Positions 3,637 through 29,897 of a stretch of 64,000 nt of DNA are shown here, piece after piece. The notes under the pieces are model-generated. The model saw only the letters and a list, made by a program, of their open reading frames with translations, made no database searches and was not told the DNA's origin. Source of the DNA: Desulfurococcales archaeon (GTDB lineage Archaea; Thermoproteota; Thermoprotei_A; Sulfolobales; Acidilobaceae); NCBI GenBank assembly GCA_015521115.1, contig WAOT01000014.1, positions 1 through 64,000 on the forward strand, read 5' to 3'. The translations under genes were made by a program, and so were the position numbers. Within the stretch, counting starts at the first letter, position 1; each line of letters starts with the position of its first letter.

Positions 3637-4077
3637 ATGGAGAGCACTCCCAGTATGAAGCATAGAATAACCTCCCTTGTTAAGGTTGACTCTAAAGGGC
3701 GTATAACCATTCCTCAGCCGATACGTGAGGCGCTAGGAATAGAGCCGGGGATGCTTGTAGTACTCATAGCTGACATAGGGAGAGGGGAGATCCTAGTATC
3801 ACCCGTCGCGACCCGAGGAGACAAGCTTTATACGTTTGAGATCGAGTTTAGAGACGTTGCAGGCTCGCTAGCAAAACTATTATCAGTCTTCGCCAACGCT
3901 AAGGCTGACATACTCGCCTCTAAATGTGCCAGCATAATCCGAGGTGAAACGGCCGGCTGCACCCTTGTAGTCGACCTCTCACCAGCAGAGAAAAGCGTGG
4001 ATGATATTGCTAAGGAGCTAGAAGCGTTAGATATTGTAACCGTAGTGAAGTACAGGAGGTTTGAAGGGTTCCAGTAG
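3637..4077 (+). CDS. AbrB/SpoVT-type DNA-binding domain fused to an ACT-like domain
   Basis: Probable transcription regulator. The N-terminal part has the swapped-hairpin AbrB pattern (VDSKGRITIPQPIREALGI). After a short linker, the C-terminal part looks like an ACT ligand-binding domain (RDVAGSLAKLLSVFANAKAD followed by two more strand-helix elements). ACT domains usually bind amino acids or related small molecules, so an effector-gated regulator is a reasonable inference. ATG codons at 3625, 3631 and 3637 are all in frame. I prefer 3637 because ggtgat lies just before it and the TATA position places the transcript start near 3631. It overlaps the downstream phosphatase gene by 17 bases, so the two are probably coupled. 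Confidence 0.8.
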   Translation: MESTPSMKHRITSLVKVDSKGRITIPQPIREALGIEPGMLVVLIADIGRGEILVSPVATRGDKLYTFEIEFRDVAGSLAKLLSVFANAKADILASKCASIIRGETAGCTLVVDLSPAEKSVDDIAKELEALDIVTVVKYRRFEGFQ

Positions 4078-4960
4078 GCGTAGTGTCACAATCTTTATTC
4101 CTCAGAACCGAGCATACCAGGAACCGGTGCTTTCAACATTGAACGAGCCCGGATATGAAGACCTAGAGGAGCTGAGGAGAGTAGCCTACAGGATCGCAGG
4201 AGAGGCCGCCGCCTACCTAAGAGATTTAGCTTGTTCAGACGAGAGCTTAGCTAAAAGCCTCGGCGGCGAGACAGTGCTTGCCGACGCAATCGCTGAGGAC
4301 TACATAATATCGGCCTTACATGAAGAGTTGGGACAGGTAAGGGTCGTAACAGAGGAGAAGGGGGTTGTTGGGAAGGGTGATATAACTGCAGTAGTAGACC
4401 CTCTAGACGGCAGCAAGAACTACCTCAACTGCATACCATGGGCGTCTGTTTCTATAGCCTTTGCACCTACTGGCGGAACCCTTAACGACGTCCTCGCAGG
4501 AGCCGTTGCACCGATCTTCTACGGCGATATAATCTCGTTTGCACGAGGCGGGGGCTGCAGGATCGGGCACTACAGGATAAGGGAGAAGGGTGAGCCCCAG
4601 AAGTATGTCTTTGTATACATAGACCACCCTGAGGCAGCCGAGCTCGTAGCGAGAACCATAGCACTACTCGGAGGTGGATACAAGGTCAGAAGCCTTGGGA
4701 GTGCCGCCCTAGAGCTAGCATACACCGGACTAAGGAGGGCAACAATGTTCCTCGACCTCCGGAGTAAGCTGAGGAATGTTGACGTGGCTGCCGCCTTCGG
4801 TATTATTCGAGAGTGCGGAGGTTTTGTGAGAGTAATTGAAGGGCGAGAGCAGGATATCTCCATTGATAGGGTAGTGAGGGTGGGAAACATCCTTGCAACG
4901 CCCACCCCCGATGTGTATAAAAAACTTGATAATTTATTTAGAAAAATATTTACCTCTTAA
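4061..4960 (+). CDS. inositol monophosphatase family protein (likely fructose-1,6-bisphosphatase/IMPase)
   Basis: Mg-dependent, Li-sensitive-type sugar phosphatase fold. The metal-binding motif DPLDGSKNYL is clear, preceded by the acidic pair in TEEKG. The second signature NVDVAAAFGIIRECGG supplies the last metal ligand. Archaeal members often hydrolyse both inositol-1-phosphate and fructose-1,6-bisphosphate; which one applies here cannot be read from sequence. The TTG start at 4061 lies inside the preceding gene with aggaggt immediately before it, which is very tight spacing, so a slightly later start is possible. The last 40 bases are very AT-rich compared with the body of the gene. It converges with a small AsnC-domain gene, overlapping by 11 bases. 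Confidence 0.85.
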   Translation: MKGSSRRSVTIFIPQNRAYQEPVLSTLNEPGYEDLEELRRVAYRIAGEAAAYLRDLACSDESLAKSLGGETVLADAIAEDYIISALHEELGQVRVVTEEKGVVGKGDITAVVDPLDGSKNYLNCIPWASVSIAFAPTGGTLNDVLAGAVAPIFYGDIISFARGGGCRIGHYRIREKGEPQKYVFVYIDHPEAAELVARTIALLGGGYKVRSLGSAALELAYTGLRRATMFLDLRSKLRNVDVAAAFGIIRECGGFVRVIEGREQDISIDRVVRVGNILATPTPDVYKKLDNLFRKIFTS

Positions 4961-5201
4961 CCGGGAAGCCCAGAAGGGTCTCAGTTCTCTTAACCCCGGG
5001 GAGGTTCCTAATGTATGTGACTATATCATTGCTCTCCGCGAAGGAATCGACATCAAACCTGACTACAACATCGTAAATACCGTAGGTCACAGTCACATCA
5101 GTTATCTTCTCCCGATAGGGGCTATCCCATATTCTCTTTGCGACCTCATGCTCCTGTCCAACTTCCGTAGCTATCAGGACATAACCTATTATCTCCCCCA
5201 C
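4950..5201 (-). CDS. stand-alone Lrp/AsnC effector (RAM) domain protein
   Basis: An 83-residue protein that corresponds to the C-terminal ligand-binding domain of Lrp/AsnC regulators without a helix-turn-helix. It has the beta-alpha-beta-beta-alpha-beta order, the VTVTYGIYDVVVRFDVD strand-turn-strand and the IRNLPGVKRTET segment typical of the family. Such single-domain proteins form octamers that bind amino acids and may modulate full-length Lrp proteins. It reads against the phosphatase gene and overlaps its end by 11 bases. Confidence 0.8.
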   Translation of the reverse strand: MGEIIGYVLIATEVGQEHEVAKRIWDSPYREKITDVTVTYGIYDVVVRFDVDSFAESNDIVTYIRNLPGVKRTETLLGFPVKR

Positions 5202-5350
5202 TTTAGTCCCACCCCTTTCTAGTTTTACTTGTTATTATCGGGCATTTTTACCGTTGCCAGTGCACACCCCGCCAACCATAAACTCGGCTCCCGCTTTTGA
5301 GTTCACCTCTGGGGGATAACTTAAGGGCCCTATAAGACCTCCTAGAACAG

Positions 5351-5446
5351 TAGGGGCCGCGCTGCTGAGACTCGGAGGCACATCTGATCCCCGGTTCAAC
5401 CTATGCAGGGGATGTGATGGTAGGGCCGGCGCTGCTGAGCGGCCCA
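5351..5446. ncRNA. candidate structured RNA or repeat element (GC-rich, self-complementary)
   Basis: This non-coding stretch lies between the AsnC-domain gene and pelota. Two near-identical 19-mers (5351-5369 and 5421-5439, 17 of 19 matching) are spaced 70 bases apart. gggccgc at 5354-5360 can pair with gcggccc at 5439-5445. Inside are a 6-bp stem (5387-5392 with 5408-5413) and a 4-bp stem (5381-5384 with 5416-5419) separated by a 2x2 internal loop. An alternative 6-bp hairpin uses 5423-5428 and 5440-5445. A 70-codon reading frame on the minus strand spans it but looks like chance. The strand and function are unknown. Confidence 0.4.
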
Positions 5447-6508
5447 CTACGAACTTCTAACGGGGAACCTTAGGATCGCGACAGCATCACCTAGCGGCCT
5501 GAGTTTCTCCCCTATCGGTGAGTCCTCCGGTACGAGGTATACCTTTCCCCCGTATCTCTCAACGTTTTCTATGAGCTCCTCCGCCTTTCCACTTATCTCC
5601 TCGTTAATCGAGTATAGGGTCGAGTCCACGATTATCAACTCCTTAACAGCTCCTATCTCAGAGGCTCGCAGACAACTGTCTATACCGAAGGCCACGAGTT
5701 CTGGGTTCCTGGCTGCAACGATCATTGCCTGTTCCAGTACCCTCTCCGCCTGGGCCACGCTGAACTCTTTAAGGAGCATCTCGAGCGTCGGCCTTCTCAG
5801 TAGCTCCTCGATCCCTGCCCTCCCCCCCATTGAGAGGCTGTCTACCGAGACCTTCAGGTGGGGGTTGAGAACCCTGACTTTCCCGGCAACCTCATCTTTT
5901 AGGTGTCCCGGGCCCCCGATGACCACCAGGTTGGCGTTATACTGTTTGGCCGCCTCTACTATTCTCTTCGCAATCCGATCAATCGCAGTCTCAAGCTTCT
6001 GCTCGCGCGAGGGGTCGTCCTTCCCGGGAAGACGGAGGTACTCGTCGGCCACTAGCTTGTAACCATGAACAGATAGGACGGCAATAGCATACTCATCATA
6101 GTCAACCGCTGCGATTACCGCACGGCCCTTGGGACCCGATGATCTCAACTTCTCCAAGACCTTAGGGGGCCAACCACCCTCTCTCTCGATCTCTAGCTCG
6201 GTGCCGGGGGTCACAATAATGGACTGGTGCTTCCCCTTAATGCCATACCTCTCGGGCCCCTCAACTATTACTCCAAAGATCCTCAGCCTGCCTGTGAAAG
6301 GCTGGAAGCTAACGTCTTTCACGCGTATTTTCACTATGATAGGCCTCTTCTCCTTCCTCTGAGAACCTCTTATTGAAACATCTCTTACTGTTCGAGCCCT
6401 TACATAATCGCCGGGCCTCAGTACCGTCTTCAGAGTCCAGAGATCCTCCTCGCTCTCCGGTTTTATCCTGAGGCGGTCGCTTCTTTTCGAGAGCACCTCA
6501 ACCTTCAT
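5447..6508 (-). CDS. pelA: mRNA surveillance protein pelota (Dom34)
   Basis: Release-factor-like protein that rescues stalled ribosomes together with aEF1A/ABCE1. The N-terminal Sm-like domain has the ESEEDLWTLKTVLRPGDYV pattern and the VRDVSI segment. The middle eRF1-like domain includes VIAAVDYDEYAIAVLSVHGY, and the C-terminal domain has ELIIVDSTLY and the GDAVAILRFPVR ending. The catalytic GGQ of true release factors is absent, as expected for pelota. The 353-residue length is typical. The start is an ATG just upstream of an AT-rich gap. Confidence 0.95.
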   Translation of the reverse strand: MKVEVLSKRSDRLRIKPESEEDLWTLKTVLRPGDYVRARTVRDVSIRGSQRKEKRPIIVKIRVKDVSFQPFTGRLRIFGVIVEGPERYGIKGKHQSIIVTPGTELEIEREGGWPPKVLEKLRSSGPKGRAVIAAVDYDEYAIAVLSVHGYKLVADEYLRLPGKDDPSREQKLETAIDRIAKRIVEAAKQYNANLVVIGGPGHLKDEVAGKVRVLNPHLKVSVDSLSMGGRAGIEELLRRPTLEMLLKEFSVAQAERVLEQAMIVAARNPELVAFGIDSCLRASEIGAVKELIIVDSTLYSINEEISGKAEELIENVERYGGKVYLVPEDSPIGEKLRPLGDAVAILRFPVRSS

Positions 6509-6553
6509 GCCTCGTCCCGCTGTCTACAGGTTAAATATTAGTGATGGGGGCGG

Positions 6554-9001
6554 TTACTTTGCCGCTATATAGACCCCTTCCCCTATCCTCGTTAGACCTT
6601 CACGTTCCTCGGGGACAACTTCAATTTTGGCCTTGTGCATCTCAGCTAGGTCTCCTAGTGCTGGTTCTAGGATCTTATCGACGTAGATCGTCTCCTCTAG
6701 GGGGTCAGATAGCTTTAGCCCCTTGGATTTCTTATACTGCCAGATGGCTTTGTCCACCTCTATTATAGCTTTAGCAAGCTTGGCTAGCTCCTCTCTCTCC
6801 CCTTTCTCGAACATTGGTTCGGGGTAGAGCTGCCTGTGGACTGTTTTTCCATAGAGCTTCCTGAAGGCGTAGTCCGTTACGAATGGCATTATTGGTGAGA
6901 GCGCTATGAGGGCTCTACGGAGCATCGTGTGGATCCCCTTCCATGCTGCCTCCTGTTCTCCGGGGCTATACTTGCCCTCCCTGTTGTATGCCCTGGACTT
7001 TACTAGCTCTATGTAGTGTGAAGCGTAGATGTCCCATATGAACTCGTATAAGAGGTTTGTAGGCTCGTATACGTCGAGGTCTGAATAGGCTTTATCGGCT
7101 TTCTCGAGGTATTCGTCTTGTAGCGCTAGGAATGCCTTGTCTACCAACGTTAGTCCTGCGCTATCTGGCTCGGGGAATGCTGAGGCGAACCTTGCCAGGT
7201 TCCATATCTTTGTTGCAAAGTTCCTACCGGTCTTTACCTTGTTCTCGTCGAACCTGTAGTCGTAGCCTAGTTTCGAGGCTATGGCTGACCAGTAGCGGAA
7301 GGCGTCTGCCCCATACTTGTCGATTACCCAGTCCGGGTCTATAACGTTACCTAGGCTCTTGTGCATAGGCCTACCCTTCGGGTCTAGGCCCATACCGGTT
7401 ATCCTTACCCAGCGGAAGGCAGGCTTTCCTAGTAGCTGGTATACGCGGAGGATCGTGTAGTAGAGCCAGGTTCTGATTATGTCCTGACCTTGGGGTCTCA
7501 GCGTGTTCTTGAACGCCTTCTCGAAGAACTTGTTGTTCCTCCTCCACTGTGTGACGTATAGCACGCTTATGCTTGAGTCGAACCATGTGTCGAATACTTT
7601 CTTCTCACCCTCAAGGTAATCTTTGGGGGCACCACAGTATGGACACTTATCCCACGGGGGATCGTTCTTCCACGGCCTATAGTATTTGCCCGCCTCGGGT
7701 ACGAGCTTGGCACCACACTTCTTACAGTGCCATATTGGTATCTCGGTGGCATAGTACCTGTCTCTTGAGATCGGCCAATCCATAGTTATACTGTCAATCC
7801 AGTCGTAGAGCTTCCTCCTGTGCATTTCTGGCCTGAAAATCATCCTACTCGCGATCTCCTTGATCTTCTCCCTGAACTGCAGCTGCTTTAGGAAGTACTC
7901 TTTCCTATAGATTATTTGGAGCGGGGTCTTACACCTCCAGCATACGGGGACTTTATGCTTGATCTTCTCCTTCTTCTCGAGGAGCCCCTCCCTTTCCAAG
8001 ATCTCGGCTATCTTCTCCCTCGCCTCATGCACCGGGAGGCCTGCTATGGGGCCTGCCTCATCTCTCATAGTGCCGTCCGGGTTTATGAGCCACTTCGGTT
8101 TTAGGCCGAGCTCGAAGAAGAGTCTAACGTCGCTTTCATCGCCGAAGCTGCATATCATCATTAGGCCTGTGCCGAAGTTGGGGTCGACTGCTGGGTGCTC
8201 GATGATCTTTACCTCATGCCCGTATATTGGTGCTATCGCAGTCTTACCCCTATACCTTTTATAGCGTTCATCGTCGGGATGATACGCTAGTGCCGCACAC
8301 CCTGCCAGCAGCTCTGGCCTTGTTGTCGCCACTACTAAGTACTCGTCTGTGTCCTTAACCTTATACTTCACATAGTAGAGATAGCCCTCCTCCTCCTTAT
8401 ACTCGATCTCGGCCTCCGCTAGAGTTGTCCTACAGCGGGGACACCATCTCACAGGCCTAGTATCCTCGTAGATGAGCCCTCTCTTGTAGAGCTCTATAAA
8501 GGTGGCCTGGGTTAAGACTCTGTACTTGGGGCTGTCAGTCCCGTCCTTCCAGTAGTCGAAGGAGCACCCCATCCTTCTCCAGACCGATACGATCTCCCTC
8601 TCGGCCTCATCTAAGAACTCCTTACATAGCCGCAGGAACTTCTCACGGCCTTCAGGGGTCTTAGCCATCTCATGGGCGTAAACGCCCTTCTTCTTCTCTA
8701 CCTGAACCTCCACGGGGAGACCGTTTCTGTCCGCATAGAACGGGACAACGACATTATACCCCTTGAGGCGGAAGTAACGGGCTACCATGTCTATCTGCGC
8801 ATAGTGGGCTGCGCCCGCCACGTGCCATTTGCCACTTGCATATGGGGGTGGGGTGTCGATAGCGATTACATCTCTAGGATCATCGGGGTTCAGGTTCGAC
8901 TTATGCAAACCCTCCTTCTCCCACAGCTCTATAAGCTCAAGCTCGAACTCGGGCTTCCACCTCTTCTCCTTAATTCTTCTCTCAAACTGTCCGGAGCACA
9001 T
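6554..9001 (-). CDS. valS: valyl-tRNA synthetase
   Basis: Class Ia synthetase charging tRNA-Val. It carries HIGH-equivalent HVAG after PPPYASGKW, the editing-domain motif VATTRPELLAG and the KMSKS-equivalent HKSLGN. Zinc-type cysteine pairs are CPRC, CWRC, CKKC and CPYC. The reading frame is open up to 9145, but the extra N-terminal residues look unlike the family. The first good start is the ATG at 9001, which has ggggag about 9 bases upstream; an ATG at 9022 is the alternative. The divergent membrane-protein promoter also lies inside the upstream part of the frame, which argues against the longest form. About 815 residues result. Confidence 0.95.
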   Translation of the reverse strand: MCSGQFERRIKEKRWKPEFELELIELWEKEGLHKSNLNPDDPRDVIAIDTPPPYASGKWHVAGAAHYAQIDMVARYFRLKGYNVVVPFYADRNGLPVEVQVEKKKGVYAHEMAKTPEGREKFLRLCKEFLDEAEREIVSVWRRMGCSFDYWKDGTDSPKYRVLTQATFIELYKRGLIYEDTRPVRWCPRCRTTLAEAEIEYKEEEGYLYYVKYKVKDTDEYLVVATTRPELLAGCAALAYHPDDERYKRYRGKTAIAPIYGHEVKIIEHPAVDPNFGTGLMMICSFGDESDVRLFFELGLKPKWLINPDGTMRDEAGPIAGLPVHEAREKIAEILEREGLLEKKEKIKHKVPVCWRCKTPLQIIYRKEYFLKQLQFREKIKEIASRMIFRPEMHRRKLYDWIDSITMDWPISRDRYYATEIPIWHCKKCGAKLVPEAGKYYRPWKNDPPWDKCPYCGAPKDYLEGEKKVFDTWFDSSISVLYVTQWRRNNKFFEKAFKNTLRPQGQDIIRTWLYYTILRVYQLLGKPAFRWVRITGMGLDPKGRPMHKSLGNVIDPDWVIDKYGADAFRYWSAIASKLGYDYRFDENKVKTGRNFATKIWNLARFASAFPEPDSAGLTLVDKAFLALQDEYLEKADKAYSDLDVYEPTNLLYEFIWDIYASHYIELVKSRAYNREGKYSPGEQEAAWKGIHTMLRRALIALSPIMPFVTDYAFRKLYGKTVHRQLYPEPMFEKGEREELAKLAKAIIEVDKAIWQYKKSKGLKLSDPLEETIYVDKILEPALGDLAEMHKAKIEVVPEEREGLTRIGEGVYIAAK

Positions 9002-26066: not shown

Positions 26067-29000
26067 ATGATACCTTCAACAGTAATTAAGAGGAATGGAA
26101 GAGAGGAGCCCTTCCTACTTTCAAAGTTAAAGAAATCTATTAGAAAAGCTGTACTTGGAGCAGGCCTCGGGGAGGAAGCCGTCTACGAGCTAATAGACAC
26201 GCTTCTCTCCGAAATAGATGAGCCCAAGGTCTACTCCTCCGTTCTCGCAGACAGGATTGAAAGAATAATGGTGGAGAAAGGGGTAACAGACCCACGCTGG
26301 TTTGAAGCCGCAAAGAGGTATGAGCTCGCTCACATCTATAACGACGTATACGGCAAGAATGGATGGAAGGATTTCGACGAGAGAGACCTCCTATTAACAT
26401 TTAATGCGATCAAGGTGCTCGAAGCTAGGTACCTACTTAAAGACCCGGAGACCTGGAGGTATAAGGAGACCCCTCAAATGATGTTTAGAAGGGTTGCAAA
26501 ACACTTAGCAGGAGTCGAGAAGAACTATGGGAAGAGCGAGGAGGAGATCAAGCAGATCGAGGAGGAGTTCTATAACCTAATGAGCACACTCCGCTTCATC
26601 CCCAATAGTCCGACTCTGATGAATGCTGGAACTAGGCTCAAGATCCTCTCCGCTTGCTTCGTAGTCCCAGTAAGAGACTCCATGACCACACCCGACGGAG
26701 AAGGTATAATGGACGCTGTGAGAGCCCAAGTCCTAATCCACCAGAGTGGCGGTGGAACAGGGTTCGATTTCAGCGAGCTAAGACCCGAAAACGACATAGT
26801 AACCAGTAGTGGAGGACTAAGTAGTGGGCCTCTAAGCTTCATGAGGCTCTTCGACGTAGCCACCGATGTAGTAAAGCAAGGCGGTAAAAGGAGAGGCGCA
26901 AACATGGGCGTCATGCATGTGTGGCACCCAGATATCGAGAAATTCATCGTATCCAAGACGGGCGAGCTGAAAGATACACACCTCCAGAACTTCAACATTA
27001 GTGTAGGCTTCTACAACGCGTTCTTCAAAGCCGTAGAGGAGAGAGGAAAGTGGCCCCTCATAAACCCGAGAAAAACCGACATTAAAGGAGAGAAAGACTC
27101 GAGATACTATGCTATAGTAAGAGCACGCCACTACATGCATGAAGAGTGGGTGCAAGAAGTAATTCTGAGAGAGTTAGAGGAGAACGGTGGCAGTATCGCA
27201 TTAGAAGATAGCCTAATAGTAACAGTAGACGAGGCGCTAGCTATAGCCGAAGAGCAGGGAGCAATCACAAGATACGTCAACGCGGAGGATCTCTTCAACA
27301 AGATCGTAAAGGGGGCATGGGACAGTGGAGACCCTGGATTCTTAAACATAGACGAGATAAACAGGAGGCACCCTACCTGGTACCTAGGAAAAATAACAGC
27401 AACCAACCCATGCGTCTCAGGTGACACGAGGATATTGACTCCTAACGGGTGGATAGAGGCGAGGGAGCTCTATGAGAGGGCTAGAAAAGAGGGTAAAGCT
27501 GTTCCCGTCGAAGTCGATGAGGAATACCTAGGCGAAGGAGGAGAACCAATAGCCTACGAAGTCACCATAATAACAGGTGATGGAGAGGCCCCCGTCTATA
27601 AAACAGCACATGGGGAAGATCTCCATCTCCAGATCCCTAGGGCGACCAGGGCTTGGATTTGGTATGTAGGGAGAAAGCCCGGTTTGAGGATAAAGACCGA
27701 GGAGGGCTACTCAATAACAGTAACATATGAGCACAAGTTCCTAACCCCTGCGGGGTGGAAGCAGGCTAGCGAGCTGAAGCCCGGAGATAAGATCCTACTA
27801 GGACGAATACATCCAGCATTTGTTGACAATACAATCTATGGGGAGAATGACTTAGACGAAGATGTAGCTTTTGTCTTGGGATGGCTAGCAGGTAACGGGA
27901 CACTAAACACAAATTACGTGGCCTGGTACTTCAGCCAGGAAGACACCATAGCGGAGGAAAGGGTTAGGCAGGGACTAGCTAAGATCGGTGGTAACCCCTT
28001 ATCACATACCTACATACTTAGCGAAGGCGAACATAAGATACAGTACAACAACGCATCCAGAGTCTACAAGAATATAGTAGCACTGATAGGAGCAGGAGGG
28101 ATGAGCAATAGTAAGGAGAGGAGGCTACCCGAGATAGCTTGGAGGCTTAGCCCCAGGGCTCTAAGAGCGTTCCTGAGAGGGTTGTTCACAGCAAACGCCT
28201 ACATAGATTATGACAAGGCTATAAGACTCACAAGCCGGTCAAAGAGGCTCCTAGAGGAAGTCCAAATACTCCTCTCAACGCTAGGGATCTACTCTATAAT
28301 CTACGATAGGCCATATTCGTATGAGTTGGTCATAAAAGGATATAGTAGGAAGTTATTTAAATTATTAATTGGATTTGAAGATATTAGAAAAATCGAGAAA
28401 CTACAAATTAAAGATGTGGAAAAGGATAGCATCTGGGCAACCATAGAGTCTATTGAAGACGTCGGCACCGTAGACTTCTACGACTTCACTGTGCCAAGGA
28501 CACACACATACATTGCAAACGGTATAGTCAACCACAACTGCGGGGAGGAGCCACTACTTCCTTGGGAGGCGTGTAATCTGGGTAGTATTAACCTTGAGAA
28601 GTACGTTATTGAGAGGGACGGGAAGAAGTTTGTTGACTGGCAGGGTCTCGCACGCGATGTTAGGCTTGCCATTAGATTCCTCGATAATGTTATCGACGTG
28701 AATATACCGCCCCTATCTCAGATTAGGAGAGCTAATCTGAGGACTAGGAAGGTAGGTTTAGGTGTTATGGGTTGGGCGCGATTCCTAATTATGCTAGGCA
28801 TACCTTACGACAGCCCCGATGCTGTGAGGCTAGCATGGAGTGTCGCAGAGTGGATTGCTTGGAACGCGTATGAGGCTAGCGTCGAATTAGCCAGGGAGAA
28901 GGGGGCGTTCCCTGCTTGGCGACCTGATCTCTACAGGTGGCTTCACGAAACCCTGCCCTACCACTCACCCGAGGACTATCTGAAGGTCGTTGCAGGCGAG

Positions 29001-29897
29001 ACTGGTAGGGAGGAGTTCATTGCTCCTCCAAGTGATAGGTTAAAGGAGATCCTGGCCGATAAACCAGAGACCGATTGGGATGACGTTAAAAGGAAGGCCT
29101 CAAAGTATGGTCTTAGAAACGCTGCACTACTAAGCATAGCTCCAACGGGATCCATAAGCATTATAGCGGGGGCCAGCTCAAGCATAGAGCCCCTCTTCGC
29201 TCTAGCATTCCTGAGGAGGGTTGCTGTAGGCGAATTCATAGAGGTTGATAAACTGTTCCTGGAGGAGCTCAGGAGACGGGAGATGGATGAGCCAGAAGTA
29301 TTCCTCGAGATCGCTGAGACAGGAAGCGTCCAGCATCTGAAATGGATCCCCAGAGGCCTCAGGCGGCTTTTCAAGACAGCCCATGACATAGACCCAGAAT
29401 GGCACCTCCTCCACCAGGCCGTATGGCAGGCATGGGTTGACGCGGGTGTCAGCAAAACCATAAACCTACGCCACGACGAACCGGTGGAGACGGTAAGGAA
29501 GGTATACCTGCTTGCGTGGAAGCTCGGAGTAAAGGGTACAACAGTGTATAGAGATCGTAGTAAGAGCGAGCAGGTCATCTACTTCGGGCTAAAGAAGAAA
29601 AAAGAGAAAAAAGATGAAACGAGGAGGGAAGAAATAGAAGAGGTTAAAATAGAATACCTCGAGGATGGACGCAGGGTAGTAGAACCGCTAAGGAAGAGCG
29701 AGGATGGGCCATCACTAATAATAGAACCCGCACCCCAGTCTAGCGAGGTGGAACAAGCAGGGAGAACTGCAGAAACAAAACACCAGACCCGACATACGCC
29801 TGGGAGGAAGAAGCTGAGGCTCGGATCCGGGAAAATTAGAGAGGTAATCGCAGTAGCAGAAGACTATGCGGGCGGTTGCCCCACATGTGATATTTAA
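26067..29897 (+). CDS. nrdJ: class II (adenosylcobalamin-type) ribonucleotide reductase with intein
   Basis: Makes deoxyribonucleotides. An N-terminal ATP-cone (residues about 1-90, [19 protein letters not shown]) precedes the NrdA/NrdJ barrel ([52 protein letters not shown]). The active-site loop NPCGE is interrupted by an intein at residues 449-824. After it come [39 protein letters not shown] and the redox pair CPTC at the very C-terminus. The mature extein is about 900 residues. No small beta subunit is seen nearby, and the C-terminal layout fits the B12-dependent class. The ggaggtgaaat before the ATG is a strong ribosome site. Confidence 0.93.
27411..28538 (+). mobile_element. intein in ribonucleotide reductase with inactivated LAGLIDADG endonuclease
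   Basis: A 376-residue protein intron. It begins at Cys 1 ([10 protein letters not shown]), has the block B histidine in TYEHKFLT, and ends VNHN before Cys +1, so all residues for self-splicing are present. The inserted endonuclease domain shows block C as LGWLAGNG and block E as LRGLFTANA. Active enzymes have acidic residues there (typically ..GDG and ..ADG), so both catalytic acids are replaced by Asn and homing activity is probably lost. The host residue +1 is the NPCGE cysteine that carries the thiyl radical. Confidence 0.92.

Follow-up and report, generated by a model that had tools for sequence, protein, structure and literature searches.

Loss of the catalytic endonuclease acids is a recognized phase in the history of such parasitic inteins, with published precedents in PhoVMA and yeast VMA. 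PhoVMA of Pyrococcus horikoshii (7qst; PMC8966425) resembles the intein described here: it is archaeal, keeps the endonuclease fold and has lost the LAGLIDADG acids, and it displayed neither cleavage nor detectable DNA binding. Unlike our intein, it is located in another host gene, its block E acid has gone by deletion rather than by an Asp-to-Asn replacement, and its inactivity was shown by assay, whereas ours is predicted from sequence. According to PMC1508164, inactive copies of yeast VMA lack one or both Asp. As at the site described below, active and acid-less copies of yeast VMA and of fungal PRP8 share one site in that account, and related species occur with and without the intein; the hosts, however, are eukaryotic and the genes are different. 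According to PMC8772380, metal ligands flank the Aquifex R2 intein, which increases iron loading. Among the literature matches listed, no title or abstract opening dealt with the present intein.

The window analyzed here is a stretch of 64,000 nucleotides from a Desulfurococcales archaeon (assembly GCA_015521115.1, contig WAOT01000014.1, positions 1 to 64,000 of the forward strand). On the + strand it carries an intein-interrupted nrdJ (26067-29897), assigned by family models to the class II (B12-dependent) ribonucleotide reductases with an ATP cone; the Pfam barrel domain of ribonucleotide reductase scored 481 bits on the whole protein. A single ORF of 1276 residues runs from the N-extein through the intein to the C-extein in an unbroken frame. 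The intein itself (376 residues, 27411-28538, + strand) lies between NP and CGE of NrdJ. Searched alone, it matched Pfam Intein_splicing with 67.1 bits (E 2e-18) and LAGLIDADG_3 with 56.6 bits (E 3e-15), so that the match is not due to chance, and the NCBIfam N-terminal and C-terminal intein models cover residues 1-112 and 356-376. The intein that a sequence-only reading had placed in ribonucleotide reductase is thus confirmed by the ORF, the domain models and the point of insertion.

The residue set of a class 1 intein (Cys or Ser at position 1, a block B TxxH, a C-terminal His-Asn, and Cys, Ser or Thr at +1) is present throughout. On the + strand, these residues are the N-terminal splice nucleophile Cys1 (TGC, 27411-27413), block B His108 (CAC, 27732-27734), His375-Asn376 at the C-terminal splice junction (28533-28538) and Cys+1 (TGC, 28539-28541), in agreement with the complete set reported earlier. 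The block labels and the role of His108 follow general usage for inteins. Cys+1 is the cysteine of NPCGE, the thiyl-radical residue in this enzyme family. From these intact residues we infer that the intein splices autocatalytically. The NCBIfam NrdJ model NF006207 (PRK08332, vitamin B12-dependent reductase) aligned its positions 860-1241 with intein residues 1-376 (289.7 bits). Over the whole protein, its best stretch (model 804-1585) continued from extein through intein to extein, indicating the same insertion site; the whole-protein score of 797.7 was below the model cut-off of 2400. Thermococcales are presumably the source of this model, whose span would include the active PI-PfuII.

An AlphaFold model built from two aligned sequences reached a pLDDT of only 41.6 and was not used; with six aligned sequences, pLDDT was 82.8 and pTM 0.79. 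Both the splicing and the endonuclease domains were retained in the predicted fold. The best fold matches included TliVMA (7qss, Z 29.4, 331 residues aligned, rmsd 3.7; 7qsu, Z 29.2), PI-PfuI (1dq3, Z 28.0, 335 aligned, rmsd 4.3) and the inactive PhoVMA (7qst, Z 25.4, 307 aligned, rmsd 3.6), all extending over residues 1 to 376, and 2cw7 (Z 26.3), also among inteins with a nested endonuclease. The top five Foldseek hits were the same entries as the best fold matches. A Hint fold was indicated by the Intein_splicing score and by the NpuDnaB intein (4o1r, Z 17.6, 137 aligned, rmsd 2.2), and an endonuclease fold by I-Tsp061I, which matched residues 146-337 of the model (2dch, Z 16.9, 174 aligned, rmsd 3.1).

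The endonuclease domain, delimited by alignment and predicted structure (residues 146-337, the partition used for the rate tests; 27846-28421, + strand), has its two LAGLIDADG helices in one chain, at residues 150-162 and 248-262; block C was read over 12 residues and the second block over 13. The acid expected at the end of each helix is missing, the last residues being Asn162 and Asn262. Both are encoded by AAC on the + strand (27894-27896 for block C, 28194-28196 for block E), and both positions are Asp in all nine intact copies of the same subgroup. Position 263 is Ala in the window, where the intact copies have Gly. A stretch of about 20 residues lying between two beta strands, kept in 9/9 intact ingroup copies, is also gone at 28317-28322 (+ strand), in the second repeat of the endonuclease (second half of the intein). 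In the LAGLIDADG fold, the deleted hairpin should face DNA. Catalytic acids might have been supplied from neighboring positions, but no substitute was found within 14 alignment columns: at the places of the acids lying in that range in the window (149, 150, 151, 266 and 268), the nine intact copies, which have the catalytic Asp besides, show an acid in 9, 8, 9, 9 and 9 cases, and therefore none looks like a stand-in. The claim that both endonuclease acids were lost is thereby upheld. By fold the domain is a LAGLIDADG homing endonuclease, but it is predicted to be catalytically dead, and the intein would no longer cut DNA.

A patch of 24.8% G+C is found in the intein at 28320-28420 of the window, adjoining the missing hairpin. 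It was considered as a trace of recombination and set aside as largely compositional, because in 26 of 29 copies the corresponding segment has a lower G+C content than the remainder; among the 29 compared, its AT-richness was strongest in the window copy.

Same-site inteins were collected in several searches. In 98 related genomes, matches were obtained in 30, with eleven (L007-L017) at the same NrdJ site, and a motif scan detected no same-site intein among the remaining loci fetched from this search. Further searches, of 214 genomes of the order and of 398 sampled within the phylum, gave matches in 20 and 27 of them, respectively, all genome sets overlapping; a named record, identical with copy L008, and a viral contig also contributed. 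The resulting set comprises 40 inteins inserted at this NP/C site, after exclusion of same-locus duplicates, of L081 (cut off) and of L079, L080, L100, L101, L103 and L104, judged by eye to be in other host genes. A motif scan of the remaining loci numbered below L106 revealed no same-site intein. In one genome (G161), two NrdJ-like genes each contain an intein (L076 and L081), L081 being the one cut off. The genome of the window contains other inteins as well (L002 to L005, G000 contigs C53, C19 and C7), in host proteins that resemble topoisomerase VI subunit A, MCM and RtcB; by eye, only the RtcB-like intein shows GDG and ADG acids.

Cys1 and Cys+1 were present in 40/40 copies, and the C-terminus was His-Asn in 37 and Leu-Asp in three. 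Both endonuclease acids are intact in these three (L017, L097 and L098). Two copies are mini-inteins, of 157 and 163 residues. The other 38 have an endonuclease domain, with both acids kept in 22, both lost in 12 and one lost in 4, counting as lost two unsure block C readings (L015, whose aligned residue is Glu, and L092, with a wrecked block). Judged by these aligned residues, the window copy is not special, being one of 16 without one or both acids. Asn was the replacement in 8 of 14 losses at block C and 5 of 14 at block E, and it occupies both catalytic positions in four copies (window, L073, L075 and L096). The nearest copy among those collected is L006, from Desulfurococcales archaeon isolate S012_22 (WAKG01000065.1), with 74% identity over the alignment; it occupies the same NrdJ site but keeps both acids and the full hairpin.

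The tree of the 38 inteins requires a minimum of 11 switches of state, from intact to lost or the reverse, with at least 6 changes for block C Asn and at least 4 for block E Asn; these counts carry no direction. Smaller trees gave 12 (29 rows) and 11 (30 rows) intact/lost changes; nine forks were poorly supported in each of these, and four in the 38-row tree. Asp is regarded as the ancestral state from its role in active enzymes. That role is also described in PMC8966425.

The intein tree was discordant with the host-gene tree. Among the rows compared, the window extein was nearest to that of an intein-free congener (82.0%), and the window intein to one from another genus (73.9%). For L012 and L082, intein identity was 73.3% and extein identity 44.8%. 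A survey of relatives for an intein-free nrdJ, proposed in the sequence-only reading, was successful: the site is uninterrupted in three of four congeners (L127, L133 and L134). The fourth (G003) contains an intein, L010, which is 58.1% identical, groups with L013 and has lost both acids; to judge from this grouping, it is a separate lineage from the window intein. Taken together, the discordant trees, the empty sites and the L010 copy point to movement between lineages and to repeated loss of cutting. Vacant sites in near relatives, combined with horizontal movement, are what the degeneration stage of the homing cycle predicts.

A 49-kb IMG/VR contig (L109, IMGVR_UViG_3300003981_000003) encodes a class II NrdJ (3660-7673) with a same-site intein, both acids intact, along with a tail-tube protein and a primase-polymerase, and is probably derived from a tailed archaeal virus. 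Its intein groups with the cellular L070, L071 and L073 (support 94/96, 38-row tree). Such a virus offers a plausible vehicle for intein movement, and it may infect archaea or have carried this intein lineage. L109 was the only one of 11 motif-tested viral loci with a same-site intein (12 collected, L114 left out), and a second viral scan using its intein as query recovered the L109 contig alone. A provirus carrier, sought by tail-tube search in seven genomes, was found in none. The L070 and L071 contigs were rejected as viral candidates, their Pfam-matched proteins being cellular (tRNA synthetases, GHMP kinase, MutS-like ATPase). Sigma-70 promoter models are unsuited to archaea, and the promoter scan was not used.

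The degree of decay after acid loss was assayed with rate triples, each made of a lost, an intact and an outgroup copy; these share rows, so they are not independent, and they include 13 of the 16 lost copies (L088, L095 and L096 left out). The lost copy had changed more in 13/13 triples for both domains, significantly in 10 for the endonuclease and in 4 for the splicing domain. Among eight intact-intact control triples, one reached significance for each domain (L069, endonuclease 32:14; L083, splicing 23:10). The endonuclease-versus-splicing contrast was significant in five triples (L010, L073, L015, L075 and L092) and non-significant in eight, including that of the window. For the latter, the ratios were 20:13 in the endonuclease (p 0.3) and 19:10 in the splicing domain (contrast p 0.79). 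The window branch thus displayed no endonuclease-specific speed-up, its triple being one of the three without a significant endonuclease speed-up. The triples show relaxed selection on the endonuclease in several other lost copies; for the window copy they do not, and they give no support to neutral decay there.

Conserved columns were also compared in nine intact and ten lost ingroup copies, using the 75 endonuclease columns invariant in the nine intact ones, with the two catalytic acids omitted. Ten of the 75 had changed in the window (6 substitutions and 4 gapped cells from one deletion), versus 3 to 41 in the other nine lost copies and 0 to 9 of 75-84 in leave-one-out intact controls. In the splicing domain, 1 of 64 conserved columns had changed in the window and 0 to 12 in the other lost copies. 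In PMC1508164, the dS/dN ratio is usable for yeast VMA and fungal PRP8; here it was dropped because synonymous sites were saturated against L006 (pS 0.94 in the endonuclease), dN being 0.18 in both domains alike. The window endonuclease thus appears otherwise little decayed, and its loss was probably recent. The sequence-only reading had proposed that the element has finished its homing cycle and is kept only for its splicing. Lost acids, kept splice residues, the lack of nearby substitutes and the empty sites in congeners agree with this proposal. The word "finished" does not hold as well: with so few conserved columns changed, close to the range of the intact controls, and similar ratios in the two domains, "recently disabled" is a better description.

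Altogether, we consider it very likely that the window intein was acquired by transfer, lost cleavage recently and has been maintained through splicing. Horizontal transfer would have brought a class 1 intein, with a two-repeat LAGLIDADG homing endonuclease nested in it, into an intein-free nrdJ allele. Cleavage would then have been lost when each catalytic Asp was replaced by Asn and part of the hairpin was deleted. The intein would have survived because unspliced NrdJ would have a broken active-site segment, so that splicing would be under selection and cutting would not. The remainder of the endonuclease domain has scarcely decayed, which suggests that the loss is recent.

It is unlikely, in our opinion, that the endonuclease fold has instead been under selection since cleavage was lost, either through Hint-HEN mutualism, in which the splicing domain depends on it, or through residual DNA binding, with Asp-to-Asn favored as a fold-preserving change. 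The low number of substitutions and gapped cells in the window endonuclease would fit such selection. So would two results from post hoc tests in which related copies were treated as independent: the block E Asp is missing as well in 7 of the 9 ingroup copies that have lost the block C Asp, whereas of the other conserved endonuclease cells 162 of 675 had changed (Fisher p 0.0012), and block C Asp was replaced by Asn in 7 of 9 cases versus 1 of 11 changes at other conserved endonuclease Asp columns (p 0.0045). However, the Asn excess is weaker against the conserved Asp columns of both domains (5 of 21, p 0.0125), and weakest when the two catalytic columns are taken jointly (10 of 17 versus 5 of 21, p 0.046). 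Moreover, 14-41 of the 75 conserved columns had changed in eight of the ten disabled ingroup copies, mini-inteins exist at the same site, GAC to AAC is a single transition, and the inactive PhoVMA has no detectable DNA binding (PMC8966425). Cutting itself might also have been selected against, with the fold kept as a splicing scaffold or DNA binder and not as decaying junk. In favor of this are the minimum of six changes for block C Asn, the joint loss of the two acids, more frequent than change at other residues of equal conservation, and the near-complete conservation of the remainder of the window copy; we regard this as improbable too.

Much less likely still is the proposal, made in the sequence-only reading, that conditional splicing acts as a temperature or redox switch regulating NrdJ and hence dNTP supply. 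A precedent is the Pyrococcus horikoshii RadA intein, in which a vestigial endonuclease loop governs temperature-dependent splicing (PMC5790916); Cys1 and Cys+1 could also be redox-sensitive. However, a second class II NrdJ, of 754 residues and with an uninterrupted NPCGE, is present on another contig of the same assembly (L106 2338-4602, G000:C58; the estimated contamination of 2.81% bears on the membership of this contig), so that dNTP supply would not have to depend on splicing of the interrupted copy. With the site empty in three of four congeners and filled by a different lineage in the fourth, such a switch is not supported. A role in NrdJ maturation, as reported for the Aquifex R2 intein, would suit an insertion within what we take to be the active-site motif, but it is highly improbable: the Aquifex case concerns a metal site in a different subunit and class, and closely related NrdJ proteins manage without an intein. 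Finally, an assembly or sequencing error, conceivable for a sequence taken from a draft assembly of 59 contigs, would have to produce two codons and an in-frame loss of about 60 bases, with Asn at both places in three more genomes (L073, L075 and L096), and is equally hard to believe.

One such intein is ordinary; the NrdJ site as a whole is a good natural experiment. Its 40 inteins at the same residue range from intact copies through losses of one acid and of two acids to mini-inteins, and it also offers empty sites and two separate copies within one genus, as well as an intact copy on a viral contig. This series would let the order and speed of endonuclease loss be measured.
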